In this document: positions 218 through 52,860 of the stretch, in pieces
Layout: every line of letters begins with the position of its first letter
Position numbering within the stretch: position 1 is the first letter of the stretch
From: Dioscorea cayenensis subsp. rotundata
Lineage: Eukaryota; Streptophyta; Magnoliopsida; Dioscoreales; Dioscoreaceae
Assembly: GCF_009730915.1 (NCBI RefSeq)
Contig: NC_052472.1
Coordinates: 19,312,382-19,376,381, forward strand
Direction of reading: 5' to 3'
DNA: 64,000 bases
Position numbers and translations under genes: made by a program
The notes under the pieces: model-generated
Databases searched by the model: none
What the model was told of the DNA's origin: nothing
The model's input: only the letters and a program-made list of their open reading frames with translations

Positions 218-557
218 TGTTGAGATGACTTGAATTCGATTGTGATGGTGACCCTATCCGAATTATGACTCGACCCTAAATTAGAAAATTCAATGAAAAC
301 ATGTGGTGCGCTTTTGGCTTGGGCCTGCCCAACTGACTGATCCACTGTGGGTTATATTATTTTATTTTATTTTAATTCATATATATATGGTTTTTTCTGT
401 ATCATCTGTATTTGGTTTTTTCCCTCGAAAAAGAAGAATAAGAAATCTCTATCTCCCTGCCCGTGGAAGCAGGTCACATCGACCGAACCATGTAAATCTT
501 TGTGTGTTAATATTTTTCCTTTGCTTTCCTCATATTATTGTTGTGCTTGGCATATCA
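218..557 (+). repeat. 5' LTR of the copia element
   Basis: This 340-bp LTR starts TGTTGAGATGACTTG and ends CATATCA. It aligns along its whole length with 7986-8348, with scattered substitutions and an extra stretch of about 20 bp in the 3' copy near 8040. The primer-binding site follows directly. Confidence 0.88.
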
Positions 558-559
558 AG

Positions 560-571
560 TGGTATCAAAGC
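560..571 (+). promoter_or_regulatory. Primer-binding site for initiator tRNA-Met
   Basis: The sequence tggtatcaaagc differs by one base from the canonical plant copia site TGGTATCAGAGC and lies two bases after the 5' LTR. This is where minus-strand DNA synthesis would be primed. Confidence 0.85.
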
Positions 572-623
572 AAGGTCCCTTGAATTCAACTTCGAATTTA
601 GGGTTAATGGGTTTATCGAAAGG

Positions 624-3563: not shown

Positions 3564-4251
3564 CACTACAAGAAATTTGACTATTCTCTACATTGTTTAT
3601 AGCTACATAGTAAATTTCGATGAGTTAAATATGTTGTATTGTCTATGATTTATATATTTCGTAGGGCAAAAACAAACATTCTCGAGCCGCCAAAGGTTTT
3701 CCTATCCGCTGGGAAGACGAAGGCCTCACGAATGATTTCGAGTAACTACGTGTAGGTAAAACAAAGATTTTTGTCTCACGAAATAGATCGTGAGCTGAAA
3801 AAGTTCTTCTAGTTTTCACCACTTAATTGTAAAACGTAGCTAAAATGTTTTCATTTGTAACACATACCAACAAATTATATATTTATCTACAACAAAAAGC
3901 GTAGGAACAATAACACTTTCAGAGGGAAATAAAAATGCTTTGAGGTACCAAACAATTCCAAACACTAGAAAACCAAATACTACGAATTATTTCTAATTGC
4001 TACAATGCAGGTAAAAATGGATTATTATGTCTATGAAACATATCATAGAGAATAGGAATTTAAATTTTGGCTAAGAATCGTACAAAAATAGCTAAAAAGC
4101 ATGATTTTATTTTCGTGCTCATGAAATAAATCCTAAAGAAGAGGGTTTAATTTTGGTTACAAAATGTGAAAATATAGCTAAAAAGTCATATTTTTAATCT
4201 ATCTACATACAACTAATTTAACATATTTGACTATAATTTTAATATGTACAA

Positions 4252-4307
<56 letters not shown>

Positions 4308-7093
4308 CAGGTACCTGCATTTTATATAGGTCTGGTTTGGACTAAGTTGGTTCTAGTATAGTTGCTGATTTTGGGATGGTGTTTGAGAAAAAATTGTAAT
4401 ATTGAATTTGTATTTTTTAATTGGTTATAATTATTAGATATAATTATTATTTTAAAATATTATTTCTTTATAATTTATTTAATATATATTATTTTTATTT
4501 ATTTTTATTTTATTATTATATATATTATATATTTATATAAATAGGCCTCATGCGATCTTCTTACAGGCTATATAACAATAATCTTTCTTCAGTTCTTCTT
4601 GATGCATATCTCTAAGTCAAAAATAGTTTCAATCTTATTGGTGGGGTCATTAATTCGATGAGCTTTTGGTCAAGTGAAATAAAAGATCATGAACCTTCAT
4701 TATTAGGTTCGAATACAAATATCACACACAAGAAAATCCATAGCGGAATTCTTTGCATAGCGATCGGTGTAGGTGCCCCTAGCATTATTGATTCTGGGAC
4801 TAGTCCCTCACGTGGTCTTCGTTCAGTCAGAAGGTTTTATATAAATTTTTTTCTTTGGTTCTTGACAGTGCTTTTAGGTTTTGCAATCCCGAGAGTAGTA
4901 TTCTTGGTGGCCTTCAGTCCGTATTAATTAGAAGGACAATGCAGCAAAGATGCATGATGAATTTCATGTGTTCATTTGTTTAATAAGTATATATATATGA
5001 GTGAGGTCTTGTTCTATTCATGAATATATGTTGAAACTCTTTGGGTTGGAAGACGGTAGACTTGTCTAAGACTATCTCCTAATAGGTAACAATTTTGCTG
5101 AATCATATATATATATATATATATATGACACATATTGTAAAATAACAAGCGATGAGAGTAGAGATTGTCAACTATCTATCTCAAATGTTTATTCTCATAA
5201 TCCAAAATGGTGATATATTATGTATTACATAGTTATAGCATTATGTATAATACAAATGTTATATATTGAATTATAAAGATGTCAATTTAAGCACACTCCA
5301 TGGTATTATCTTAAATACAAAACTGTGCATTTTCATTTTGTTGTATATGAACTTTTGGCCAGAAATGTGCACCTAATGAATTATAATTTAGATATTGCCC
5401 CAATTATGTTTTGAAGTTAATTTATTACGGATCTTTTCAACACAAATGAGTTGTAGGTTCAATTTGGGTTAGAAAATAAATATTAATTGATTACCAAAAC
5501 ATCAATAAAATTACATTTGTTTTCTTTCCTAATGTACAACAATTTAATTACTACATTTTTCTCATTGCCAATTTATCTAACGAAAAGTTAGGAGTAGTAT
5601 CACATGATTTTTTATACCCTGAATCGGTGGCTCTAAAGCTGGAATTTGTATCTGTTTTCTTTTGAGTGCCTTTTGAGCAAAGAAGTTTAAGTACTTCAAT
5701 GGTAGCATAAAATGATTGCCTTGCAATGTGATACCGCTGAGACTCTTACTGATACACAGAATACAATTGTGTTGAATTTTAATGAGTATTGTACATGATT
5801 CTTACTACATTATGCATCTAAAGATATTAATCGATAGCAAGGTGCTTTTCTTAATATGTAATATTGAGAGTTATTAGAGTCAAGGATAATTGATACCATA
5901 TTATAAATTCTTTTGAGGAATGAAGATATTATTTTGTTTTATTTGAAAGCTTTCACTGGTAAGATTTTTCTTGATCTGATAATTAGTTTGAGTACACACT
6001 GGTTTACAAGATTGTGGTATGAAACAGTGAAATCATCAAGGTTATAACATTATATGATTATATTTCTATTTACGATGATCCGACCAATAGGTTTTGTTGA
6101 CATTTTTTATTTATCGTGTAGTGGAGATGAACAAAGGTGTGAATCACAGTTTAATCATTATATGGTTGCTACAATTTTTCAGGTTTTACTATTTTTTGGC
6201 ATTTACTTCTTTTGCTTGGATAAAGAAAGTTATTTTAAAGAACCGCTATTAGTATAAATTTATGATTTAGTTATTTTTTTTGTAAATAGTACTATGATAT
6301 ATATATGAATTTTTTTATGCTTTAATGCAGAAGTTAGTAAGTTTGACAAGAGGTGGGACGCGTATTCATATGAAGCGGTTTCATTTTACAAGGGGCAAAG
6401 ACACAACTTAGCATTGATACTTTGGTCTTTTTTGATGCTTTTTGTATTGGATTGTTAACTTAAGTTTCTAAGAATGATTGTAGACAAATGGATTTATATT
6501 GAACATTTATTCTTGGATTCAATGTTTGCAAATTAATAGCTGGAGATGAACCTTTTTAGATTCAACATGTATATTAACAATGAATTATTAAGGTACAATT
6601 TTGATATCCAGTCAATTCTAAGCATTGCCCTATGATTTGTTAAATAATGACTGCAAAAATAATTGTAACTAAAGCACATGATAAAATAGAATAAATTCAC
6701 TAACTTGAAAATCGTAGACAAAGCCCAAAACTCTCTGAAAATTATCATAAAATAAAAACAACAGGAACAAAAATTCACTATTCTCAACAAATTTTCCTTC
6801 AACTAAATTTCGTAGAAAATAAAGGACACCATTACCTACAATTTTGATACGTAGCCAACCATCTTTTTCCCTCTACACGATTTTTTAATTTAACACAGGC
6901 ATATTTACATTTCTCCGAGAATAACGTGAAGAAAATTCCAGTTCAGCTACGAAATAGGAAATCATGGTAAATGCCTACAGGCCGTTCTCACGTTTCGTTA
7001 TACGATTTTTATGGGTAATATGTTACCTACGATTGCTTTAATCTCTTTCCCTGAATGGTTACCGTAGACCAATTAGCCAAATTTATTGTGGTG
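3564..7093. mobile_element. Non-autonomous CACTA (En/Spm) DNA transposon nested in the copia reverse transcriptase
   Basis: The left end CACTACAAGAAATTTGACTA (from 3564) is the standard CACTA terminus. The right end (7071-7093) is its inverted copy with three mismatches and one indel. The subterminal 300-500 bp on both sides carry many copies of a CGTAG/CTACG motif in both orientations (for example 3655, 3745, 3833, 3898, 6812, 6847, 6953, 7026, 7063), as expected for transposase-binding repeats of this superfamily. The copia reading frame stops at the left end and resumes at the right end, which confirms the insertion. The 3-bp flanks (TTA and ACA) do not match. I found no transposase. The interior is AT-rich with a TA microsatellite, so mobility would depend on a transposase encoded elsewhere. 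Confidence 0.88.
4255..4307. repeat. (TA)n microsatellite
   Basis: This is an uninterrupted TA run of about 50 bp inside the CACTA element. Confidence 0.95.
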
Positions 7094-19712: not shown

Positions 19713-20406
19713 GGGGTTACATCTCCTAGGGACGTCCCCAGAATCCATATCTGGGGATGTCCCTAGGGACCGTTGGATCAAATGATCCAACGGTTCCTGT
19801 ACTCTCCCAAAAAAATCATTACACTTAAATGAAAACCAAACCTGAAATGAGTTTAGATCCATCTCCTCCACCAGCGTCCACCCATCAACGACGCCTCCCA
19901 TCATCTCCACCACCGTCTCCCGCTCATCTCCACCAACGCCTCCACCAAAGCACTCCCACCCATCAACGCCTCCCATCGTCTCCACCACCGTCTCCCGTCG
20001 TCTCCACCAACGTCTCCCGTCTTCTCCACCAACGCTGTCTCCTCGTCGTCTCCATCAACACCAACGCCTTCTCCGGTGTCAAGGTTTAGATCCATCTCTC
20101 TATAGATCAACCGATTTCTTTTTGTTGTTCTTCTTTCTCGAAGCAATGATTTGGGAGAAATGATGTTAATTTTGAGATGGAATAATATTTCATTTGATTC
20201 AGTGTTTTAACTTTAAGTTTCATCGATTGTCATAGATTTCCGAGTTTGATTTAGTCTATTAATTTCTGGGGTTCCAAAATTTCATCGAAAGATTTAAAAT
20301 TTAATTTTTTTTTTCTTTTTCTTATTTTAGATATGTATCTATGATTTCTTACCTGATCTTAGAATTTTGGTTGGTTGAAATTGTGAAAAGTGGCTGATTG
20401 GTGTGC
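19713..20406 (+). repeat. Left terminal inverted repeat of the FAR1-type MULE
   Basis: This repeat has three parts. The outer 80 bases hold two hairpins: arms 19726-19742 and 19750-19766, then a near-perfect 24-bp palindrome at 19770-19793. Next comes a GC-rich minisatellite (about 19865-20080) built from variants of tctccaccaacg. The inner part is AT-rich. The whole repeat matches 25832-26518 in inverted orientation with few mismatches, apart from rearranged minisatellite units. Confidence 0.9.
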
Positions 20407-20718: not shown

Positions 20719-23033
20719 ATGGCCGATACCACTGATGGGATAGATTTGAATGAGCTCGGGTTAAATGGAGACCGTGGTGGTCTAACACAAGAGAATGATA
20801 GCCAACAACTTAAAAATGAAGATGATTTGGCAACACAAGATGTTCAAGAATTGGCAATGAGTCCAAAGTCTCGAGATGGACAAGAATTAGCAAAAATCCC
20901 ATTTGTTGGTATGGAGTTTGAGGATGAGGAGGAAGCATTTCGATATTACTTGGATTATGCAAAGTCCAGAGGTTTTGGGGTAAGAAAGGGTCACGTGTAT
21001 CGTTCGTCTCATTCTCAATTAATTACATGTCGACACTTTGTTTGTGATAAGGAAGGAGCCAAGTTGGTAGACAAAAGGCAACTGGGAAAAATTGTTCAAA
21101 GACGTAGAGATACAAGGACAAATTGCCAAGCTCGGATGGCAGTGTCAAAAATGAAGAATGAATTATGGACAGTAAAGACCTTTGAAGATGTTCATAACCA
21201 TCATTTACTAAGAACTCCCTCTAAGGTGATGAAGATGCGGTCTCACCGCCATATCAGTGTGATGTGTAGAAGTTTAATGGAGACATTGCATAAGAGTAGA
21301 GTGGGACCAAGCCAAATGTCTCGAATATTGAATGAAACACTTTCAAATACAGGGTCTGCATCTATTACCCCGAACGATTGTTCAAATCATTTGAGGGGAG
21401 TTCGAAGCAACAATATTGGGTAAGAATACATGGCTATTGTTAAGTTTTTCAAGGAGAAAAAACTCAATGATGATTTTTTCTTTTTTTGATATGGAGCTTG
21501 ATGAGTTTGTTCAAACTAGATGTGTGTTTTGGGCATATGGAAGATCTAGAGTTGCATATTCAGAATTTGGAGATGTTGTCGTTTTTGATACTACTTATCA
21601 AACAAATAGATTTTGTTTCCCTTTTGCTCCTTTTGTTGGAGTCAACCATCATAAGCAGTCCATTTTATTTGGTTGTGCTCTCATGGCAGATGAAAAAGAA
21701 GAAAGTTTTTTATGGGTATTTCAAACATGGCTGAAATGCATGCTAGGGAAACATCCACAAACAATTATTACAGATCAAGATTGGGCTATGGGGAATGCCA
21801 TTGCACATGTTTTTCCAAATTCTGGTCATCGACTTTGCTCTTGGCACATTGGGAGAAATTCAATGAAGTATTTAGTAGATTTGAAGAGCAAAGATGGCTT
21901 TATGAGGGATTACACTAACTGGTTGCATCTTAGTGAATCGATTGAAGCATTCGAGGATAGATGGGGTGAACTTAAGGCAACATACAACATTGATGATAAA
22001 CATTGGTTGAGTAGGATGTATGAGATTTGGAGCAAATGGGTTTCTCTATATTGGCAAGATACATTCACAGCAGGAATGACCACTACACAACGTAGTGAAA
22101 GTATCAACTCATTTTTTGATGGCTTTGTTAATGCACAAACCCCACTGGATGAGTTTGTTATGCAGTATGAGAAGGCTTTGTTAGCTCCAAGAAATGTTGA
22201 AGAAAGCGAAGACTTCAAGACTTTGAATTCTATAGCTAACTTTTATACGGGTCATCCAATTGAGAGACATGCAGGAGAAGTGTATACAAGAGCTGTGTTT
22301 GATACTTTTCAGGCAAAATTGCGAGAAAGTGATAGCATGCTTGCTGAACACATTCGAGATGGGTCTGATAATGCTAAATATGCAATTTGCAATCATGTTG
22401 TTGTATTTGGCAAAAACTGTACTGAAGATGGGGAACCTTACACAACGTGCTCGTGTAAGAAGTTTGAGAGAGAGGGCGTGTTGTGTTGCCACATATTGAA
22501 AATATTTAAAAAAAAAGGAGGTGCCGAAGATTCCCATAAAATATATTCTACGTCGTTGGAGTATGGATGCAAGGTATCAGTCAAGTGTTATGATGGTTGA
22601 GACCCACAACAATGCCTTTACACCATTGATGAAGTGGAGTGCACAAAATATGTGTTTCCGTATTGCACAGAGTATATCATCTCTAGACATGTATGAAAAA
22701 ATTATGCCTAAGCTAAATGATATATTTGAAATGGTTACTGAAAAGTCAAATGCACCAGAGCATTCATTAAGCACCAAACAAAATGAGGAAAATCAAGAAG
22801 CTATTGGTTCATGTTCTTTGCCTACCTTCTCATGTGATAATGATGTTTATGGGTCATACGTTAGTATTCTTGATCCAAAACCTGTCAAGAGAAAAGGGCG
22901 GCCAAGAGTAAACACAAGGATTAAATCCGGAATCGACCTTCAATTATCAGCCAAGAGGAAAAGGACTTGTAGTAGATGTGGGGAAAAGGGTCATTACATG
23001 ACCACATGCACATTTGAAAAGGGTTATTTGTGA
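20719..23033 (+). pseudogene. FAR1/FHY3-related MULE transposase, disrupted by one stop and two frameshifts
   Basis: Three consecutive frames make one protein. The first (20719-21423) has an acidic N-terminus and a FAR1 DNA-binding domain (GMEFEDEEEAFRYYLDYA, CRHFVC, then HNHHLL). The second (about 21485-22515) has the transposase core with acidic residues in FDTTYQTN, TDQDWAMGNA and QRSESINSFF, and a SWIM finger (CSCKKFEREGVLCCHIL). The third (22515-23033) has VPKIPIKYILRRW, a KGRPR basic patch and a CCHC knuckle (CSRCGEKGHYMTTC). The first break is a TAA at 21421 followed by a shift in a T-rich run near 21475-21488. The second is in a run of nine A at 22508-22516, where eight would restore the frame. 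It would bind and cut the element's ends. It is probably inactive as written, although both shifts lie in homopolymers and could be sequence errors. Confidence 0.88.
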
Positions 23034-25831: not shown

Positions 25832-26518
25832 GCACACCAATCAGCCACTTTTCACAATTTCAACCAACCAAAATTCTAAGATCAGGTAAGAAATCATAGA
25901 TACATATCTAAATAAAGGAAAAGAAAAAAAAATTAAATTTTAAATCTTTCGATGAAATTTTGGAACCACAGAAATTAATGGACTAAATCAAACTCGGAAA
26001 TCTATGACAATCGATGAAACTTAAAGTTAAAACACTGAATCAAATGAAATATTATTCCATCTCAAAATTAACATCATTTCTCCCAAATCATTGCTTCGAG
26101 AAAGAAGAACAACAAAAAGAAATCGGTTGATCTATAGAGAGATGGATCTAAACCTTGACACCGAAGAAGGCGTTGGTGTTGATGGAGACGACGGGGAGAC
26201 ACATGGCAGGAGAAGACGGGAGACGTTGGTGGAGACGACGGGAGACGGTGGTGGAGACGATGGGAGGCGTTGATGGGTGGGTGCTGGTGGAGGCGTTGGT
26301 GGAGATGACGGGAGACAGTGGTGGAGATGATGGGAGGCGTCGTTGATGGGTGGACGCTGGTGGAGGAGATGGATCTAAACTCATTTCAGGTTTGGTTTTC
26401 ATTTAAGTGTAATGATTTTTTTGGGAGAGTACAGGAACCGTTGGATCATTTGATCCAACGGTCCCTAGGGGCATCCCCAGATATGGATTCTGGGGACGTC
26501 CCTAGGAGATGTAACCCC
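25832..26518 (-). repeat. Right terminal inverted repeat of the FAR1-type MULE
   Basis: This is the inverted partner of 19713-20406, ending GGAGATGTAACCCC at 26518. It contains the mirrored minisatellite (about 26165-26375) and the two terminal hairpins (about 26432-26500). Confidence 0.9.
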
Positions 26519-26831
26519 TATATATATATATATATATAAGTTTGGGAGGAGAATGAGATATGGATTATGGGGACGTCCCTAGGAATCGTTGGATCATTTG
26601 ATCCAACCGTTGGATTATTTATTGAAATCATTAGAAAAGAGTATCCCATTAATTGATTAAAAAGCTAGGGTTTTATTAGGGTTTGAATCTCTCTCAACTT
26701 AAAGGTTATCAAAAATTGATAGTTTGTCCATATTTATTTTACAAAAAATTATAAGTTTTATTATTTTATTTGTGTTTTAAATATTTATCCTAATAAAACC
26801 TAAAATATATTCATATTATTATATTTTACTA
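26519..26831. other. Terminal fragment of a second, related MULE and flank
   Basis: After a TA run, 26548-26606 repeats the hairpin block of the FAR1-type MULE terminus (ggggacgtccctagg, then gttggatcatttgatccaac) in the left-end orientation, with substitutions. The rest is AT-rich with no gene. It looks like the edge of another element of the same family, separated from its body. Confidence 0.6.
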
Positions 26832-27727
26832 GAAATTACCAAAAAAAACCACTAACTTTGTAATATTACCAAAAACACCCTCTTAATTTGGTAATCCCTA
26901 AAAATACCTTTTTAAAGTCAATGATTTTCAAACCCCCAAAAGTTGTAACCGGCTGTAACAGAGTTACTTTTGAATTTTATGGACGAAATTGCCCTTTGCA
27001 TTTGAAGTTGTGGCAGTACAATCATGTGTCCGGTTTGAGAGGGAGTGGGGGTTATTATTTTGGGTAATCCCTAGAGCCATTATTGCCGCCGATTATATTT
27101 TTTTTTTTCTTCCTTCGTCTCTTCAGCTTTTCAATTTCCAAAGTCGTCTCTGCTTAGGCATCCTTGTTTGGAAGTTCTTCTTCACTTTCCATCATTGTCT
27201 CGAAAAAGAATTCCTGCTCAAGTATTCAAAGATTTCATCGACTTTGGGATGTGAAGGTATTGAGCCGGTGAGCGACGCTGACAGAAGTTGTGTTTATGGT
27301 TTTTTTTTTTTTATAAATGATTTTGTTAGAAAAAGAGATTTTTCGGTTTTGCTTTGTGGTTCTATTTTTATTGGATGATATTGAAGTCTGGAAGGAGATT
27401 TATCGGCTAGGGTTTTGTTTTGGTTTTCATTTTCGTCTACGGTTTTGTACACGATCGAAAGATATTTTTTGATTGTTATACTGTATAATGTTTACAATAA
27501 AGGTTTCCCTTTTACGTTGATATGGTTGCAGTTTTAAAAATGAGGTTTCCGTTTAAATAATGGGATACTATTTAAACATTTGATTTTTATGTTTAAGGAT
27601 TGTTGTTTCTGTTTAAATATTTATCTTTCTGTTTAAGAATTTAGGTTACCGTTTAAAAAACTTTACTTTCCACTTAAATTTATCTGAATACCATTTAAAT
27701 TATGGTTATTGACACAGGTTTGTGATT
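26832..27727 (+). other. Left end and leader region of the ULP1 MULE
   Basis: This part holds the inverted repeat, a subterminal region, and a probable non-coding leader of the ULP1 gene. The last 180 bases are a leader intron made of a 20-base periodic array and ending cacag at about 27718. The frame 26989-27378 is not recognisable as a protein family. Confidence 0.5.
27534..27712 (+). repeat. 20-base periodic TTTAA array A (leader intron of the ULP1 gene)
   Basis: Eight copies of an NTTTAA or NCTTAA core start at 27551, 27570, 27591, 27611, 27631, 27651, 27672 and 27693. The spacings are 19-21 bases. Only the core and a pyrimidine-rich lead-in are conserved. Confidence 0.85.
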
Positions 27728-28531
27728 ATGGCTGTCAACCTAGTTAATTGTCAATGCTACTTGACACCGGTAGTGGAGACTGTGGCTAAGTTGAAAGTTC
27801 ACATGAGTGGACGACACTAGGAGATAATTCGGAGGACACCGTTTGCAGCATTCACCGACGTTGAACCTGTGTTCCAAGAGAGGGCCCTCCCTAATTCTTT
27901 GCCGCAGAGATATGATGGCCGCACCAACAAATTCAGGATCGAGGAAAGCTTGGTAAGTTTCAGGCCCCAAGATGTGCCTCTCATTCTTGGACTGCATTGC
28001 GATGGAGACACAGTCGTATTTCAGAATAAGAATAAAGCACGCTCCGCCTTTAAAAATAGATATTTTTCCAAAACCTACGAGAGACACAAAGACTCCATCA
28101 AGAGAACACTTGAGCAGCTTGTTCAGCAGAGAGGAGAAGAAGAAAATTTTGTTAGACTCCTAATGGTGTACCTCATGGGTACAATCCTTTTCCCAAACAT
28201 GTCTTACTCGGTTCCGAACTGGATAGTTGACTATGTCGATAACCTACCTGCCATGGGACGATATGCATGAGCGCAAGTGATGCACAAGTGGCTGATGGAG
28301 AACGTCCCACAAGAGACCGCTCGAGTGCAAGCGAGATGCGCCGGGAAGAAGACGAACACGAGGTACGTCAAAGGTTGCTTGGACGCACTGAACATCTGCT
28401 TTTACGAGCTGACTGGCACCGGAAAGAAGGTGCAATTTGGCAAGACCCCAAGGACGCTATGCTACGGTAAAAATAGTTACCAGAATTAAGCAATGATAGA
28501 AGACATATTTCCATCGCTCGAAAGAAAGGAG

Positions 28532-28743
28532 GTAATAAATTATGAGTCTCTATTTAAATACCAAACATTTCTATTTAAACAATGTCATTTAGTGTTTAAC
28601 CTAGAAGTTCTCTATTTAACTATTTTGTATATCGTTTAAAAACATATGTAAACTGTTTAAATATTTGAGTTAACTATTTAAAAATATTTGTTATTGTTTA
28701 AATTGAATATTTTGACTAACATTGTGTTGTTTAACTATGTTAG
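28532..28743 (+). repeat. 20-base periodic TTTAA array B (intron 1 of the ULP1 coding region)
   Basis: Core copies start at 28552, 28573, 28594, 28614, 28634, 28655, 28676 and 28696, with a degenerate one near 28714 and one at 28729. The main spacing is 20-21 bases. The array fills the intron from just after its donor (GAG then gtaata) to its acceptor (tgttag). Confidence 0.87.
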
Positions 28744-29427
28744 TTACCTGAGCTGGTCGAGGCGAATGCAGATGAAGAAATCTTCGTTCGGGCCATCCGT
28801 CGGGGAATGCTATTACTCCCGAACCACTGGCACGAAGACAAGATGAGAGGCCATCCTCTTCAAGGCATCGTCAACGCCGTTCACATAATGACAACCCAAC
28901 CCACGTACGAATTCCTCGGCGCCGGAGAAGCCCCACCCTACCCCACTGCCGAAACACCCCTCCCCACCGCAACATTCCCTCCTTCGAGATCGTCCCCCTG
29001 CGGCGGCTACGGCCCCTAGTGACGCGATGTTGCAAATGCGTGCAGTGCGGGCGTGCTGGAGGTACTAATGACCGAGTTTCCTCGGCATGTTACTCGGGTA
29101 GAGGTATTGGAAGGACAGGCACAATCGAATGAGTCGTCCTTAGAAACAGACGCCACCCGGAAAAGCCCAGATGCAACCGAGGTAGCCCGGCGATTGTTAA
29201 TGACATGAGTGGGATAGCGTCGGATTTTGATGATGACGACGTCATTTGGATAGCCTTTCGAAGAGGGCCATGTTTGAAGAGAATCACCAAAAGAAAAAAA
29301 ACAATAATGTCTCTCCCTCTACTGCCCGATGATGAGACAATAGCAGTACTACTTACGATTGATCTGCTAGCTACAACGGCAGCGTCTGAGAAAATTGCTC
29401 CGAAAGAAGCATCAGTTATAGTCGATA

Positions 29428-29535
29428 CAATGGCCAAAGAGATCCCCATCTCGGTGGAACCGGCGATAGGCAAAGAGATCCCTATATTGGTGGAACCGGC
29501 GATGGCCAAAGAGATCCCCATGTCCGTGAAACTAG
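29428..29535 (+). repeat. Coding minisatellite in the ULP1 gene
   Basis: Three tandem copies of about 36 bases encode variants of AKEIPISVEPA. The array lies in the low-complexity acidic exon between the N-terminal domain and the protease, and probably forms an unstructured linker. Confidence 0.8.
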
Positions 29536-29984
29536 CAGATGACAGTGTCACGTCGAAGGTTGACACAAACCCTCAACAACAAGAACCAGCGAAGATTGTG
29601 TCTCTGGTTGATGTTGTCGTCATGCCCGTAATTAACAAGATCGTCGACAGCATTGTCAACAAAATCCCTGTCTTGGTTGAATAGGCAGACGGCACCGCCG
29701 CATCGAAGGGAGAAACTATCCCACAACCATCAACAACAGCACCTGCCGATGAACCGAAAGTTTCTATTGACGCGGGGCAAGGAAACATCGGCGAAAAAAC
29801 AACAACCGTTGCTGCAGTTTACGCTATGGTCCTCGCCAACCAACAATACCAAAAAGTACAGATGGGCTTTCAAACGAAGAAGAAAAGATACCCCGGACTA
29901 GGGCGGCTAGACGTGTTCGAGCAGGAGTTATTAAAGATCTACCTGAATTGTATGATGGATTCATAAGTATCAAGTATTTCCGTT

Positions 29985-30139
29985 ATACTTTAAATATATA
30001 TGGTATCATTTAACTTTCTTAGGTATTGTTTAAATATGTTAGTGACCATTTAAATATGTAAGTTACCGTTTAACTTTTGGCGTTACCACTTAAATATGTT
30101 GTCCCCATTTAACTTTATCTTTTACCAGTTAACCACAGG
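29985..30139 (+). repeat. 20-base periodic TTTAA array C (intron of the ULP1 gene)
   Basis: Core copies start at 29988, 30008, 30028, 30048, 30068, 30088, 30107 and 30127, an almost exact 20-base rhythm. The last unit merges with the acceptor (aaccacag). Confidence 0.88.
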
Positions 30140-30896
30140 ACTGTCGTATGGAGGAATGACTGTATCAGCACCACACGAGACAGCCTATACACATTGCTAC
30201 ATGGGAAGAAAATGGTGACAGACGATGTGATGGATGTGTTCGTTTGCATAATCCAGAAATCTCTTAAGAAAGTATCATATCCATATACGAAGCGCGCCTT
30301 CATCACGCGACCGCTGGCACTATTCATGTCCAAGTAGGAGGACGCGAATGACACGGCTCTCGCTATGATGGGAGATATCGCGCATAACCTACATGATGTT
30401 GACATAGTCATCCTGCTAATCATCATGAATGGTCACTTCCATTTGTTCGTTTTTTATAACGACAAGCAAGAATACATGCACTATACTTCTGTCGAAAGTG
30501 AGGAGTACGAGAGAGACGCCGGAGAGATGGTAAGTGCTTTGATAACTAGAGTTTTATAAATAGTCCGATCTTAGTCGGGATTCTAACATTAAATTTTAAA
30601 TCTCGACAGCGGAGACTATTCGACTAATGTGTCGATGTGGACCTCGGCGAGTCGGTGACTCTAACATACCCCTTTGTTCACGACACTGACACCATAAGGC
30701 AGAAACGAGGAAGTGTCGACTGCGCCGTCTATGTCATGGAGTTATCAAGCAGCTACTCAACGGTGAAAAGCTACCTCTACCGCAAGCGGACGTCCCTTAC
30801 TAGCACTTAAAATATGTTACCCGCATACTTAAGGAAAGGAGCGCAGCCGACATCACTGAGAAAGGGGATTCCTCGATGGGGACAAAAAAAAATTAA

Positions 30897-31213
30897 TATG
30901 TAATTATGTCAAACAGAGTTACCGTGTAAATAACATTGTATCTCATTTAAATATACTTGATATTGTTTAAATATCATTGCCATTGTTTAATTTATAAGTT
31001 TCTCTGCTTAAATAACATTGCCTCTCTGTTTAAATATCATTGGTTTTATTTAAATACTAAGAATTTATGTTTAAATTTTTGTTTATTTACAATGCCATTA
31101 TTGTTTCTCAAAAAGTTTAAGTAAACGTTAAGAAACAATGTCTCTATTTAAATATCAAAAGTTGACACTCAAATAAGTTTGTTTCTTTTCAAATATTTGT
31201 TCATTTACAATAC
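30897..31213 (+). repeat. 20-base periodic TTTAA array D (between the convergent MULE genes)
   Basis: Cores start at 30924, 30945, 30965, 30985, 31006, 31028, 31048, 31069, 31115 and 31146, in plus orientation. The spacing is 20-22 bases over the first eight. The array separates the stop of the ULP1 gene from the stop of the transposase and may belong to a 3' untranslated region or a terminal intron. Confidence 0.78.
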
Positions 31214-31754
31214 CTAGTCAGCGACAGTTTCATTGCGAGATCTACGATTCTAACCAGACGCGTGGCAGCGGCTGCAACGTAACTTGCGGACCTCGGACAC
31301 ATGCGACTCGATCCTCTTTCGTATAGGACGCCCAGGTTTCCTTCTTGTCACAGGCAGTCTAAAACGCAGTTCACAATTTTCATCCGTAGGTTTCTCATTG
31401 TCGGGTATGGGGAATATAGCTTCCAAATACGCCAATTTGTAATTGTCGACGGTGAAGTAGCCGCTAATAAATCGATGAATGTTGGTGTTTGTCTTCATTA
31501 TTTCAGCGCAAGCGTGTTTGCAAGGGATACCATAAACTTTTCATCTGCGACATGAGCAAGTTTTATTGGCAAGATATACAGAATTGCTGTACTGGTTAAT
31601 CACTTCATAACGATCATCGACACAATGACCAATATGAAGATTTCGGCTTTCCTCGACGAATATCTCTACCTTCGAATGTATGTCCGGGCATAAGTAGGTC
31701 TCCCATTTGTTCACTTGCTCACGTCGATTGCATAACATGTGCATCAACTTGAAC

Positions 31755-31965
31755 CTGTACAACATAGAACACGAATACTTAAACAAGGTTAAGCAAAGAC
31801 ACTGATGTTTAAACAGAAACAAATAGTTTTAAACGGTAGGATAAGAAATTAAACGAAGAGCCAGATAGTTAAACACAGACAATGATTTTCACACAGTAAG
31901 GAAAACTGTTTAAAGGATAAGAACAATATATTCTTAACCGTTAAATAAAATCAACATTTGAATAC
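31755..31965 (-). repeat. 20-base periodic array E (intron 2 of the transposase)
   Basis: On the plus strand the core appears as TTAAAC-like units starting at 31789, 31809, 31829, 31849, 31869, 31889 (degenerate) and 31910. The spacing is 20-21 bases. In the transcribed (minus) sense this is again GTTTAA, matching the arrays in the plus-strand gene. Confidence 0.87.
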
Positions 31966-33234
31966 CTTATGGAGTCGACCATTTTTGTCACCGGTAATTG
32001 CCGAGCTTCTTTGACCCACGCATTGAACGGCTCCGCGACATTTGAATACATCTCACCCCAGCGTTCACCTCTGAATAGATAATTTGACCAATGTGACATA
32101 TCATATTTATGAATCAACCACTGATAGGCTTCGAGTGATGTGGCTTGCAGTTCATTCACAGTATCATCAAATTCTTTAGCCGTGGATGCCCACGCAATAC
32201 GAAAGTATATGGACCAACACTCCTCCCTCAGTGTCTTCCCGAGTCTGACATTGGCTTTCAAAAAATTGGCCTCCAAATGTCGTAGGCAGTATGCATGTGG
32301 GGAAGAAGGGAAGACTCTAGCAATGGCGTTTACAAGGCCCTTAAACCTGTCTGACACGAACGTAATTATCTCTTGATAATCTCCTTTATCGTATAAAGCA
32401 TCACCTAACTTGGAAATGAACCACGTCCAATTGGCATTGGTCTCGTTGTCGACAATACCGAAGGTGACGTGGAAAAAGTCATCGTTTCCATCTTTACCTA
32501 TGGCACCCAATAGAGTACCCTGCTACTTTCTAAGGAGGTGGGTACCATTGAGAAACAGCAGCACCCTGCAAGCCCTTTTGAATCCCACAATACACACACT
32601 GAAAGAAAAGAATGCACGTTTAAAACACTCACCGTCTCTTTCCACGATTGCAATGCTGCCGAGGTTTGTCTCAATCACCTTATCCATGTACCAAAGCAAC
32701 AAATCATAGCTGGAGATGTCGCTGCCATCGAAGACCACCCGGGCATGCTCTTTTCCCAACCAAGCCTGCTTGTATGGAATTTGGACACCATATTCCTGCA
32801 ACATGTCCTTCTGAATGTCGATGGCCTTGTATAAGGCCCGGTCCTTGAGCTTCTGAATCACTCGTGCGCTTACCCATTTTTTGGATGCTTTCGGATGCGA
32901 TGCCGATCCAATTCCACCACCGCAAGTGTGTGATGGGTGCACTGTCTTGATTTTGAAAGCATTTTTATTATATTCCTTTGATGCATGAAGGCGCCATTGA
33001 CAACCATCGGCAGCGCATTCCACAGTCACCCGGTGTTTTTCGTTCTTTAGGAATTTGAAGTCAAAATTCCGTTTGATTGCAAAATTCTGAAGTGTCTCTG
33101 AAATGTTTAACGCTTTAAAAACGCTATCCGATATCAAACGACAACACTTCAGATTGATCTGACGAGGAAGGAAGGCATGCCACACCTTTAGGGTCGACAT
33201 GAGGTGGAACAAAAGCGCTCCCAAATCCGAATTC

Positions 33235-33474
33235 CTACCAACACTTTAGTTTTAGTTTAAACAAAAACGATCAAGATTTTAAGCAGAAACATAAAATTTT
33301 TAAACGATAAGTATAAAATTTAAACTTTAAAACAAATAGTTAAACCGAAAAAGAATAATTTAAGCGGAGAATACAGTTTTCAAATGGAGACTTGATATAA
33401 TTAAACAAAAACTGGGATAATTAAACAATAATTAATTTTTACAACAAGATAAACATAAAAGAGAAGAACCTTAC
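33235..33474 (-). repeat. 20-base periodic array F (intron 1 of the transposase)
   Basis: Core units on the plus strand start at 33257, 33279, 33300, 33320, 33340, 33360, 33380 (degenerate), 33401 and 33421. The spacing is 20-22 bases. The sense orientation follows the minus-strand gene. Confidence 0.87.
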
Positions 33475-34201
33475 AACGAGAAGAACTCGTTTTCAGTAGG
33501 ATACAATGGCACATCATCTGTCTCAACTAGATCGACTACAGCGCATTTGAAGATGGAGTCCACATGACACATGTGCTGGAAGTCAACCTCGTTTTTTATT
33601 GGACAAACCGTTTTATGTCCATCGGGTGTGATAAACTACACCCTGACACGGGAAATATCGAGACCACATCGCTCACATATCTCAGCTAACACTGATTCCC
33701 AAGAAGTCTGCGCCATGAACATTAGCACTCGTTCATCCCCGTTGTATCTAGCAATAGCACAAAAACTCTCCATAATAGCCCTGCATTTTTATAAATTGTT
33801 ACTCCCTCTCACAGAATGATCAAAGTGAGAGCAACGAAGAAATTCTCACCTTATCGGGAAACCAGCAGAATCCAAATTGAACAAACCAAATGAGGAGAAG
33901 AAGAAGAAGAAGATGTAATGAGAGCCTTCTAAACTTTGTTTGACAAAAAACAAGCAGGGAGGCAAAAAAAAAATGCAAATTGTATGCATAAAGGTCGGAC
34001 ATGATGTGATTGGACAGTATTTTTCCCACCATTTGCAAGGGCAAAAATAAAATTTCATAACATGGACCCACTTGAAGTGACCGATAGGGGGTAAAAGGGA
34101 ATATAAACTATAACGGAATGGTTGTCCAGGATGTGCAAAAGTTGGAGGGGTTTTTAGAAATCTTTGAAAATTTAAACAGTAATTTTCCCTATATTTTATT
34201 A

Positions 34202-36790
34202 GTTGTTACTAAAGACAATTATATTTAATATAACCGAGAATTTTTTTTTTTTAATCTTTATATTTTCAAAGTCTTTTTTTTAAATAATATCTATCTAGTT
34301 GTTCATATGTTTTAAACACCATCAAGGTTTTTTTTAAATTTTTAATAAATTAAAAAAGCACAGAAGGAAACTCAAATTTTCTTTTTTTTTAAATGCGAAA
34401 AAAAGAAGTAAATTTAATTTGTATATATTTTACAAATTCCTTCTAATTGAAGGTCACATGTGAAAGTTTGGAAAATCTGATTGATTGAGACCACTAAAAT
34501 TTGGAATAAAAGGTGCATAGTGAGAGGGACCCAAAATGAGTTGGAGAAGCAGCAAGCTCAGACATTATTGTGCCACATAAGACAGTCTCAACTTTCTAAA
34601 CTTGTAAACTGATTCTCGTAAAATAATTATACAGTGAGTATGAGGTGGGGATCCCTCATTCCCTCTCTTACTGGGATGGGAAAAACTCTCTTGTCCCTGT
34701 AGCGGGAGGAAGTGCTTTTCCCATCCCGAAATAAAATTATATTTATACATTTATATATTATATATTTAAGTATATAAATACAAATAATATATGAGGTTAA
34801 AAAATAATTTATTTATTTTTAATTGTGTGGGGATCCTCGTGGGGAGAGGAGTGGGTTTTCCCTTCTCCGGTTGCCCAATTGGGTGGAGATAAGAAATCTC
34901 CACCTAAGTTGGGGAAGTGAGTAGAGAAAGATTTTCGTCCCAATGGGTATTTCTAGCTGGTTTAAAACTCAACTTTTTCAATGCTATCCAAAAATAAATG
35001 TTTTATTTGAGAAAAAAAAAAAATAAGTATCACTATATATGGGAAATTTCATTAAACTATGGTTTTCCAATTTATCAATTCTGAGTTTATAGTTTGAGTT
35101 TTAACACTTTAGCATTTTATAGTCTAAATGATTTATACAAAAGTGCCAAAACATTTAATCTCATTTATACTTGTTGACATGGCATAAAAATAAACACGAT
35201 TTTATTTTTTTTACCATTATTTCAATTACTACAACCATATCCATTAACTTAGACCAAAATGTAATGCTTTTCATTAAGACATTTATTGCAACATTATAGA
35301 ACACATCCTAAACTAAAACATTCCTAAAACACTATTCCCACATTAAATAAGTATTAGTAATTAATTTTTGGTATTACAATTTAATTATTTTTATCGAAAA
35401 CTTTATTTTACTTTAAATTTAAATTTTTTAAAATTTTAGATATTTGGGTATTTTGGGATTTTTAGAGTATTATCAAGTTGATTATTATAATCAACAAAAT
35501 ATAGTAATGAAAGATTACCAGTCCCAATCAAACATAATCATCATAAATTACCATAATATTCTTAGACATATAGTATTTTCAACCTCATTACTATAATAAT
35601 TTTATTACTGTAGTAAAATATCATTACTATGAACCAAAAATTAGTTAAAGAGTTAGACTCCGCTCACCATCTTTGATGTTATTGTGCTCATGCACCAATG
35701 ATGCTGGGATGATACACAATCTCAGACTTGGCTACGAGCTAGACTTTCTATACTATTTAAGTTGGATGGTTCATTTTCTGTGAATATTTTTGAGTGTCTA
35801 TGTTTTTTAGGTTGATGTTTTATTTTCGCTTCATTATTTATTATATCATCAACACTGACCACGCAATAGAGTCATTGGCTTAGAGATATTTGGAATAAAA
35901 GGTACATAGTGAGAGGGGCCCAAACTCATTGTCAAATGAGTTGGAGAACCAACAATTTCAGGCATTATTGAAGGGAGGCTTCAGCGTTTTACTTAAATTC
36001 CCTAAAATGTTTTCATATATACCCTAAATTTTTTTAAAAATATTTGCACATCTCTCTCATTCTCTGTACTCAATCAGGGTATTCTGAAATTAAATTCTAT
36101 GTTAATGTTTTGTAGATAGTAAAGGAATTATAAAATTTTCAATATATTAACTTGAATTTGAATACAATTTAAGTTTGGGACAAATAACATGATCAATAAA
36201 AAGGATTTTTCAATATAGACACAATGAAATATAAATATATCAGCTACAAAATAATTATTTATTATATGATAAAAATATTTATAGTAAAAAGTTTGAATTA
36301 AATATTATTTGATAATAAAAATTCATATAATATTTATTTAGCTTTAAATGGATTATAGATGTTATTAATTATTTATAACAATATCAATGTAATCATATAC
36401 AAACCAATTATGACCAAAAAGAAAACAAATCAGTATTAACAATATCAATGTAATCATATACAAAACAAGAGTTTGTTATATTTAATACGTTAATTTATAT
36501 ATTTTAATCTTTTTAAAAAGTTAAACAAGTCACTTTATATAAATACTAAATTTTATTTATTTAATTTTATTATATTATTTTTATAAATATAAAATTTAAA
36601 CTCAAAACCACTTAAATAAATAAAAACTCTACCACTTCAACTATGCATGTTGCTATATTATTTTGTATTATACCTAATCATTATAACTACTCGTAATAAT
36701 ATATACAAACAATAACAAAGTTTTGCGGGGCATAGATATACAACCCTGAGGTTCTTAAGAGGTTGTACATGCAGCATAATAATAATAACT
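34202..36790. other. AT-rich intergenic DNA, no gene seen
   Basis: I find no coding sequence. Two diverged copies of a 70-85-bp phrase starting tttggaataaaaggt lie at 34491-34570 and 35889-35972. Between them a segment with ggggatccctcattcc-like phrases (34640-34930) suggests an unidentified transposon remnant. Confidence 0.55.
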
Positions 36791-37409
36791 GGAAATGAAC
36801 AAAAAAATCCCTCCAAAGTTCAGGTATTCACAAAAAAACCCCATGACTTTGAGTATTCCCAAAAGATCCTTCCTTTTTCTGACAGGTTATTTTTCAGACC
36901 TTTCTGACATAAAGGTGGTTGATGTTGACAAAAGGTAACAGATATTAACTGGGATGACTCTCAGTTTTTAAGCGAAAATACCAAATTTTAAGCAAAACCC
37001 CATAATTTTAAGCAGAAAAGTCAAATTTTAAACGCAAATGTGTTATATGTTAAGCGAAAACTTATGTAGTTAAGCGAAAACACCAAATTTTAAGCGGAAA
37101 CTAATAATTTTAAGCGGAAAAGTCAAATTTTAAATGCAAATGTGATATATGTTAAGTGAAAATTTATGTGGTTAAACGAAAACACGCAATGTTAAATGAA
37201 AACTATATATTTTTAAGCGGGAAATACATGTTGTAAAAATAGAATAAAACTAATGAGTAAGATGCGTTAATTGAAAAAGTACAATCTGTCGAGGGATTGA
37301 AAAAAATAAAGCTATCAAAAAAAGGAGGGACTGTCTGCGAATTTAAATGTCGGAGGGAGTGCATGCAGGATGTTTTGAAACTTTCGAGGACCCAAAAAAT
37401 AATTTTTCC
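36791..37409. mobile_element. Non-coding deletion relative of the ULP1 MULE
   Basis: The left end GGAAATGAACAAAAAAATCC and the right end (reverse complement GGAAAAATTATTTTTTGGG) are degenerate inverted repeats that resemble the ULP1 MULE ends (GGGAAAATTACT). Flanks taataata on both sides are compatible with a 9-bp duplication but overlap an AAT repeat. The interior has no gene and is dominated by a 20-base periodic array. It would need an outside transposase. Confidence 0.6.
36968..37222 (-). repeat. 20-base periodic array G with a 102-base higher-order repeat
   Basis: Thirteen TTAAGC/TTAAAC cores start at 36968, 36988, 37008, 37028, 37050, 37070, 37090, 37110, 37130, 37152, 37172, 37192 and 37213. 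The flank is gcgaaaa-rich. Five-unit blocks starting near 36982 and 37084 are similar along their length, giving a 102-base second-order repeat. Confidence 0.88.
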
Positions 37410-42497: not shown

Positions 42498-45714
<3,217 letters not shown>

Positions 45715-51500: not shown

Positions 51501-52860
51501 TTAGTTTGGATGAAATGTAGTTTGGCACATGAAGCATAATCTCATCAACTTTGTCAACACATGCAATGGCTTGTGATTTGTTTAAACTAATTCAAGAAAT
51601 TTAACATATGTCACCACCTTTAGAATATGAACCCACCTTTAGAATATGAACCAACAATCTTGTCATGAAAGAGGGGATCTCTGTCACTAAGACAACCAGC
51701 TCACACCTATACTATTGATAAACGGATTACTCTTGATACATGGTAATATTTGTAGGTTGAAACGTTGAGATAATTTCTCGGCAAGGGGACTAGTTATATA
51801 CCTTAGAACTCTTCATTGAATAACTTGGGAATTGCCAACTAAGATCTATCAAGATAGAAGTGCTGTTGTACAAAATGTACTTCTAAGAAATCATCCCATA
51901 GATCCTACACCTACCCAAACACAAAAATATTAGGTCAAATATAGGAATTAAATGCTCCTTTTCGTTCTAGGATATCTTGCTACCAAAATCATCAATCTCT
52001 ACCAAACTTGTGCCACAAACCCACATTGTACTTGGCAAGAAATCTACTAACGAAGATAAATCAATACGGATAACATGACTGACTCTTTTGATCACAAAAC
52101 CTTCTTTTGCTATACTAACACTGAAATACATCCAATGATCACCTAATTAAGAAATTCAGTACTAGATCCACAAATCAGCAAGAATGATACAGATCAATGA
52201 AGCAAAGTGGATGCACAACTGAAACTCTGATTACAGACCTTCTTAGCTATACTAATACTGGAAAGCACATTCAAAGATCACCTAATTAAGACATTCAGTA
52301 AAAAGTGGAATCTAACCTTCTGACTCCATCTAATCAGTATGAATTTGAAAAGCTTAATTGTAAAACCCTAATCAAAAACATTCAATTGATCACATGAAGA
52401 AATCCAAAAATCCAGAAATCAAAACACTAGAGAACTATGCAGGATTGAGGACCCAAAACAAGATTCCCACAAGAGAAATCTGCAGACGATCTGTCTTTCA
52501 ACACATTAGAGCTAAAGTTCCACCAGATCCCATGAATTAACTCCAAACAAAACATAGACCCAAAAAAAATCACATTTTTCGCAGAAATAAATCATGATTT
52601 CAAACAATCATACTTGAATCATGCATCAAAACACAAGCTTCCAATTTTTCAGAGACACATAACTATAAACACACAAAGCAACACAAAGCAAAGGAAACAA
52701 AACCAATGGATCACAGAAGAGTGAAGAGAAGAGTACCAGTGAGAAGAGAGGAAGAGGAAAGGTAATGGGGGACAAGAGGGCTGCGGCGCCGCACTGAAAG
52801 CTTTTAGTGAAGAGGAAAGGAAAAAGCCATGAGTGGGAGTGAAGACAGAGAGAAGAATGG
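48572..52860 (-). CDS. DUF3527 family protein with leader intron, frame broken at several places
   Basis: The family is plant-specific, of unknown biochemical function. The coding exon 51272-49466 starts MGLDVALEGENYQAG once one G of a five-G run after ATG is discounted. It continues with KRGSMYHSSREVRKMRK, then SPLKK and DPIMKSRSF, SPAHLHGTLRLEFKYGVPSF and GGPSSLLDRWRTGGGCDC. Intron 49465-48896 has GT-AG ends and joins LFSQ to GKKDKVPALTV. The last exon (48895-48572) ends in the family hallmark PSFLLDPPFSPIGRV. A 5' leader intron spans 52736-51285 (donor CACTG then gtactc, acceptor tttcag), giving a leader exon near 52737-52860. At least five frame changes are needed between 51272 and 50400, several in homopolymers (G5 near 51266, T3 near 50916, A5 near 50510). 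The 3' half from about 50400 is clean. Confidence 0.8.
51285..52736 (-). other. 5' leader intron of the DUF3527 gene
   Basis: This 1.45-kb intron lies between a GC-rich leader exon (ctgcggcgccgcac near 52780 on the plus strand) and the coding exon, 12 bases before the start codon. Both splice sites fit the plant consensus. Long first introns in the leader often raise expression of plant genes. I see no gene inside it. Confidence 0.6.

Follow-up and report, generated by a model that had tools for sequence, protein, structure and literature searches.

Phased TTTAA arrays in a yam Mutator-like element as probable targets of a VANC-type anti-silencing protein

Introduction

VANDAL elements of Arabidopsis carry short motifs that are bound by VANC proteins. 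These motifs are repeated in tandem and in the same orientation, and the resulting arrays are found in introns, in spacers and at the element ends (Hosaka 2017, PMC5735166). Here, we study arrays of a short TTTAA core in a Mutator-like element (MULE) of yam. It is located in a stretch of 64,000 nucleotides from Dioscorea cayenensis subsp. rotundata (NCBI RefSeq assembly GCF_009730915.1, contig NC_052472.1, positions 19,312,382 to 19,376,381 of the forward strand). This whole stretch is referred to as the window, and coordinates are relative to its first letter unless a locus or contig is named.

For VANC21 of Arabidopsis, binding to the motif YAGTATTAY has been reported both in vivo and in vitro. 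The bound regions are non-coding, hold many motifs in one orientation and show tandem repeats, which vary from copy to copy. DNA methylation is lost from the bound copies, and the VANC proteins combine a DUF1985 domain with tandem peptides (PMC5735166). VANDAL elements have degenerate terminal inverted repeats (TIRs; PMC10398659). According to a review, VANC genes that carry Ulp1 act on non-coding motifs of their own group, and Ulp1 MULEs have previously been described in rice, melon and grapevine (PMC13317346).

The yam element shares many of these properties. Like VANC21/VANDAL21 (Hiun) of Arabidopsis thaliana, it is a Mutator-like element with a transposase and a DUF1985-type gene, its short motif is repeated in tandem and in one orientation within introns and spacers, its arrays show turnover, and the protein holds tandem peptides (PMC5735166). 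The core, in contrast, is YRTTTAA or GTGTAT instead of YAGTATTAY. Furthermore, the spacing is tightly kept at about 20 bases, while the passages considered from PMC5735166 give no VANC21 spacing figure to set beside it. We identified no VANB in the window's element, and the host is not Arabidopsis. The likeness to VANC6/VANDAL6 lies in a related protein that goes with a different tandem-repeat motif, as is the case between the two core classes found here, whereas the AGTTGTMC motif of VANDAL6 is absent from the window's element (PMC5735166). With the Ulp1-carrying non-TIR MULEs named Kaonashi (KIU), the element shares degenerate ends and a DUF1985 match, to which some relatives of the window's copy add an Ulp1 end (PMC13317346).

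Given the match to what has been published on VANC targets in Arabidopsis VANDALs, sites bound by an element protein are the best supported explanation. That is, by analogy, we consider it likely that the arrays are target sites of an anti-silencing protein of VANC type, with DUF1985 and Ulp1 parts, which their own transposon family encodes. The pattern was first noted in a sequence-only reading of the window, which offered four explanations: introns born by expansion of a 20-base unit, splicing or RNA-stability signals, phased binding sites for an element protein, and nucleosome exclusion. Of these, the third has the best support. This is a known kind of system; new are the target cores and a 20-base spacing that is kept while the core changes. 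Since Ulp1 MULEs are known from rice, the monocot host would be new, within the literature covered, for the target arrays only. Sasaki 2022 (EMBO Journal) reportedly lists the helical periodicity of motifs among the determinants, and the title is said to place the target arrays in eudicots; by that title, the arrays of KIU and Ulp1-type VANC differ in host from those in yam. A literature search for phased 20-bp repeats in Mutator-like introns returned no closely matching paper. The view that the pattern had no description at all is nevertheless wrong, because VANC-bound arrays in introns and spacers are already published (Hosaka 2017, PMC5735166).

The element and its phased arrays

The features of the element are as follows.

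26820-26831 and 34190-34201: TATATTTTACTA and TATATTTTATTA, probable target-site duplication of 12 bases with one mismatch, flanking the element
26832-34189, no strand assigned: Mutator-like element of about 7.4 kb; ends placed by eye, terminal similarity weak
27503-27717, plus strand: leader intron with putative borders; phased array with nine TTAA cores at 27534-27695
27821-28267, plus strand: VANC-like DUF1985 part of the plus-strand gene; Pfam match below the curated cut-off
28532-28743, plus strand: intron 2 with phased array of 10 TTAA cores; GT-AG, open frame across the joint
29433-29532, plus strand: 36-base (12-residue) tandem repeat, 2.8 copies, inside the plus-strand gene
29974-30138, plus strand: intron 3 with phased array of 8 TTAA cores including variants; GT-AG, open frame across the joint
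30139-30807, plus strand: Ulp1-like C-terminal part, containing stops; the piece 30338-30556 resembles pieces in the relatives L060 to L063
30530-30609, plus strand: intron 4, short and without array, serving as internal control
30897-31213, plus strand: spacer between the convergent genes, with plus-sense phased array
31213-33800, minus strand: MURA transposase gene; limits approximate, by eye
31755-31965, minus strand: transposase intron with phased array; GT-AG, open frame across the joint
33244-33474, minus strand: transposase intron with phased array; GT-AG, open frame across the joint

The element holds two convergent genes, i.e., a DUF1985-type gene on the plus strand and a transposase gene on the minus strand. 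The latter is of MURA type, with DBD_Tnp_Mut, MULE and Transposase_mut all above the Pfam cut-off. In the plus-strand gene, Pfam matches to DUF1985 (expectation value E 1.8e-6) and PMD (E 6.4e-6) both stay below the curated cut-off. The inverted similarity of the element's ends scores 51 compared to a maximum of 49 among 500 shuffles, which fits degenerate TIRs.

We tested six array stretches of the element (27525-27715, 28532-28745, 29970-30139, 30897-31213, 31755-31965 and 33235-33474) as well as a seventh at 36950-37240, which belongs to the short relative described below. The numbers of TTAA pairs at a distance of 19-22 bases are 8, 7, 7, 7, 4 and 6 for the six arrays in this order and 12 for the seventh. 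Dinucleotide shuffling (1000 per array) yields mean pair numbers of 0.22-0.80 with maxima of 2-5 in the six arrays, and the observed value is never reached in any of the seven. Among 3,039 overlapping 200-bp windows outside the arrays, at most 3 phased TTAA pairs are found. The phased arrays of an approximately 20-base unit are thus real. Over all seven, 49/62 adjacent TTAA spacings fall within 19-22 bases, 32/62 are exactly 20, and the mean is 20.31. For TTTAA in the plus-gene half, 2, 13 and 6 pairs are observed at 19, 20 and 21 bases and none at the other distances between 15 and 26; the remainder of the window shows no TTTAA spacing peak at 19-21 bases. When all 16 four-letter A/T words are tried, TTAA is the only one that is phased in 7/7 arrays, and TTTA equals it in two.

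Two details of the sequence-only reading need correction. Six of the eight NTTTAA starts it gave for the intron at 29985-30139 hold, while 30088 (ACTTAA) and 30127 (AGTTAA) are one-base variants. Conservation is also not confined to the core, since T-rich bases on its 5' side and A/T on its 3' side are weakly conserved too (in units selected by TTAA).

Next, we consider polarity. Using a leave-one-array-out matrix, 53/56 sites of the six arrays have their higher score in the orientation first proposed. In the seventh array, 13/13 sites have minus sense, where the sense was assigned by the analyst. A matrix built from the plus-gene arrays ranks the minus-gene arrays and the seventh far above 575 background TTAA sites (p-values 6e-7, 5e-5 and 3e-8). 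The motif YRYTTAA occurs in the plus arrays 31 times on the sense strand and 17 times on the other (many of these by palindrome), while 4,915 coding bases hold 4 on the plus and 1 on the minus strand. That is, the non-coding parts contain a high-density motif in a single orientation, as is the case for VANC-target arrays.

Such sense polarity would also be accounted for if the arrays acted in the RNA, as signals for the splicing or the stability of AT-rich introns. This would agree with T exceeding A in the sense used in 7/7 arrays, and with GT-AG borders and an open frame over the joint in four array introns (28532-28743, 29974-30138, 31755-31965 and 33244-33474). Against it, arrays are also found in the spacer and in the short relative without recognised gene, while intron 4 of the same gene has none. 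We therefore regard RNA signals as very unlikely; nothing in the present sequence analysis favours splicing, RNA stability or nucleosome exclusion. The proposed tie of the pattern to the transcript is thereby narrowed: it stands for the polarity of the intron arrays, while a transcript is not needed given the spacer array, the array of the gene-less relative and the array-free intron 30530-30609. In both core classes, the polarity of intron arrays follows the transcript, although strand and element half nearly coincide in this layout.

Small-RNA phasing at 21 or 24 bases was rejected, given the mean step of 20.31. Words of the TTTAAA type that are phased with the helix are not known to bend DNA strongly, and a curved-DNA reading was dropped on this ground. 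For off-register sites, the best helical period is 10.2-10.4, and not about 20.4, in three arrays; with 9-10 sites each, no conclusion is drawn from this. A scan of the window with Rfam at gathering scores gave no match. Elsewhere in the window (51600-51652), a 19-base tandem repeat around TTTAGAATATGAACCACC has a spacing near that of the arrays with a different word.

A short relative without recognised gene

About 2.6 kb downstream of the element we find a short relative that carries the seventh array and no recognised gene.

36789-37409, no strand assigned: short relative of the element, about 620 bp; one phased array between similar ends; limits set by eye
36966-37219, minus sense: phased array of 13 CGCTTAAAA-like units within the short relative

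Its left end aligns clearly with that of the element (score 72, maximum of 500 shuffles 46), while the similarity of the right ends is weak (45 compared to a maximum of 42). The array, which had not been noted before, is the longest of the seven and among the most regular, with 12/12 spacings at 20-22 bases. Since it sits in a relative without recognised gene, the array is kept in place without an intron.

That the short relative retains ends plus array, and that arrays also lie inside the transposase gene, would fit internal transposase binding sites that aid excision or its regulation and are no anti-silencing targets. Arrays are, on the other hand, up to kilobases away from the ends and placed in introns and spacer, and in L063, a relative without arrays, the identity of the transposase to that of the window is 54-70%. 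We consider transposase sites quite unlikely.

The array at 36966-37219 also contains a 102-base higher-order repeat (90/102 identical), i.e., ordinary tandem duplication. An even larger case is found in L059, one of the GTTTAA-class relatives, where a block of exon plus array in the DUF1985 gene has been repeated in tandem within 1700-4300 (offset 790 with 534/600 identical, offset 796 with 429/600). VANC targets, too, show tandem repeats that grow and vary among related copies. Taken alone, both duplications would suit minisatellites that multiply by slippage and travel with the element as neutral passengers, such that the 20-base step merely goes back to the chance length of the first unit. 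The units (selected by TTAA) have, however, diverged outside the core while their spacing stayed constant, one core is common to separate introns on opposite strands, and in a sister clade another core occupies three of the same introns. Neutral minisatellites are thus unlikely in our view, and anti-silencing target sites remain the preferred explanation.

Distribution in the genome

To count the pattern genome-wide we used the 584-Mb assembly, including overlapping matches. Three TTTAA at steps of 18-21 bases occur 23,091 + 23,358 = 46,449 times, while the reversed pattern is found 3,178 + 3,222 times. At steps of 23-26 bases, the count of 2,423 + 2,497 = 4,920 is close to its reversed control (2,604 + 2,611), i.e., the excess is specific to the two-turn step.

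For related copies, the genome was searched with the DUF1985 profile. Scoring 150 of 455 candidate places gave at least 150 matches with E ≤ 0.001; the better-scoring relatives exceed the Pfam cut-off, while the lowest ones and the window's own (C2:19340313-19340648, E 3.6e-4) stay below. The 30 best matches were extended by 1.5 kb on either side, with the orientation taken from the listed strand. Within these 30 loci, we count 10, 108, 36 and 21 TTTAA pairs at 19, 20, 21 and 22 bases. Other distances provide 0 pairs at 16-18, 1-2 at 23-26, 12 at 13 and 10 at 27 bases. At least 3 phased [GA]TTTAA pairs are present in 15/30 loci, and in 15/15 of these the sense orientation dominates. Overall, 178 phased pairs are sense and 40 antisense (the latter partly from the palindrome TTTAAA). 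Some of the loci are near-copies, i.e., 13 locus pairs have more than 300 common 20-mers.

As background, we used the remaining parts of the window as well as 20 random 2-kb stretches from 16 large contigs; the random stretches hold a single phased [GA]TTTAA pair in total. The strand-matched 20-base peak, which the sequence-only reading had named as decisive for copies with independent insertions, recurs at other genomic sites, some of them near-copies, and the periodicity is nearly absent from random genomic DNA.

A second core and the DUF1985 tree

Based on the pair counts, we assigned the other 15 loci to core classes by eye. Six loci (L010, L012, L018, L020, L024 and L029) show GTGTA/TGTAT at 19-22 bases, all in sense orientation except for one pair in L010. 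In three further loci (L023, L030 and L035), CTTAA or a CTTAA/TTTAA mixture is found, with L035 lacking a clear polarity. The loci with TTTAA arrays contain no phased GTGTA or TGTAT, and the GTGTA loci contain TTTAA pairs only in L018 (three) and L024 (one). Two phased TGTAT sites each are observed in 3/20 random stretches. The genome-wide count of phased TGTAT triplets (1,653 + 1,415 vs. 719 + 609 for the reversed pattern) is weak, because many listed matches are plain TGTA microsatellites.

We compared core classes with a DUF1985 tree of 31 stretches and 124 columns; the comparison covers DUF1985 alone. The core class changes 4 times on the tree (minimum possible 3, shuffled mean 13.8), and 0/200 shuffles reach so low a number. 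Separate clades are formed by the GTGTA rows (support 100/99) and by the rows without arrays (100/100), while L023 is placed among the TTTAA rows.

Two of the GTGTAT elements were read over 8 kb as L060 and L061. In both, the second intron of the DUF1985 gene holds a GTGTAT array on that gene's strand, and there are opposite-strand arrays at the places that match the window's two transposase introns. Accordingly, the left half of each of them contains 5 phased TGTAT sites on the plus and 0 on the minus strand, and the right half 0 and 11. The GTGTAT clade thereby fills 3/5 of the window's array introns. Relative to the window, the transposase pieces of these elements are 49-62% identical and the DUF1985 pieces 43-46%.

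That is, the core switch from GTTTAA to GTGTAT follows the DUF1985 clade, and both the spacing and three intron positions are retained. Such a motif change between related families is also seen among VANC targets. Since local duplication cannot move a core between distant introns, stronger evidence than the agreement with the tree comes from one core being shared by separate introns on both strands in one clade and another core by three of the same introns in the sister clade; parallel change or gene conversion may also explain how a core is replaced across introns. The transposase has diverged too in the GTGTAT elements, such that divergence alone does not decide between transposase and DUF1985. 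Because of this difference between the clades, it is by inference that we take DUF1985, rather than the transposase, as the core reader.

Evaluation of the target-site explanation

Several observations weigh against anti-silencing targets. The Arabidopsis motifs YAGTATTAY and AGTTGTMC are both absent from the element. Its DUF1985 match is below the Pfam cut-off with PMD close behind, and the plus-strand gene is broken by stops downstream of the DUF1985 part. As a single element passes on both the proteins and the arrays, the tree agreement alone is no proof of their interaction. The correspondence of the two core classes is also incomplete: neither L060 nor L061 has a GTGTAT counterpart of the window's intron 3, the leader array is absent in L060 and reduced to two units in L061, and the array past the transposase end of L060 (5428-5489) has minus orientation, in contrast to the plus-strand spacer array of the window. 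Finally, six DUF1985 loci (L009, L013, L014, L017, L033 and L036), which form the supported array-less clade, have no array of either core. The same holds for L062 and L063, two members of this clade that were read over 8 kb and have neither core arrayed. L063 contains the transposase and Ulp1-like stretches, and L062 an Ulp1-like piece. A scan of both 8-kb reads for a third core found none, where divergent units could be missed; the clade may use another word.

Based on the Arabidopsis system, a VANC-type protein would bind the core, many copies of it would sit side by side on one DNA face, and silencing marks would be removed from the element. The packing of the protein would set the spacing and base contacts the core, while arrays would grow by local tandem duplication. 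A wider model, which we put forward only tentatively, is that a monocot DUF1985-Ulp1 MULE lineage uses a fixed two-turn DNA ruler. Here, the 20-base step set by packing would persist across clades while base recognition evolves, with one core taking the place of another jointly in several introns of the two genes and always in the local transcript sense.

With two pairs of protein clade and target core at constant spacing, in a genome with at least 150 DUF1985 matches, the reading of bases and the measuring of distance become separable questions. The system also allows one to ask how a transposon can switch to a new target word simultaneously in several introns, and the monocot host would widen the known range of target arrays. 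Since the arrays are common (46,449 phased triplets, overlaps counted), they are a possible tracer for element families without remaining genes.

Protein searches and neighbouring features

The Ulp1 label given to the element at first sight is not backed by the window's copy, for which Pfam reports no Ulp1 domain; it finds support in the relatives. Pieces in L060 to L063 show 41-42% identity to the stretch 30338-30556 of the window. Among six open stretches near those pieces, Peptidase_C48 is above the cut-off in L060 (E 2.3e-4) and L063 (E 8.3e-6) and below it in L061 (E 0.031), while the remaining three have no match. Within the Ulp1-like part of the window, GSVDCAVYV resembles what we take to be the Ulp1 active site. 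Beside a lysine/glutamate-rich frame that follows the Ulp1-like end of L060, 51- and 18-base periodicity is found (4480-4800).

A search of solved structures returned nothing at E 0.01 for a transposase piece; with the DUF1985 piece or the Ulp1-like reading as query, chance-level rows only (E 0.16 and above) were obtained. The fold of the DUF1985 piece predicted from one sequence has a mean predicted local distance difference test score (pLDDT) of 40 and was left unused. Transposase relatives in viral contigs were searched and none confirmed.

Four kb from the element (20719-23033), the window contains a gene of FAR1 type in which MULE and SWIM domains are matched and which probably derives from a domesticated Mutator transposase. 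Stretches of one GGAGACGACGGGAGAC-type repeat occur at 19898-20059 and 26178-26366, one per strand; the two are possibly parts of another repeated element. By eye, frames at 303-3112 resemble a broken copia-type retrotransposon. A tubulin gene is located at 42565-45714, where GTPase and C-terminal domains are matched in open pieces.

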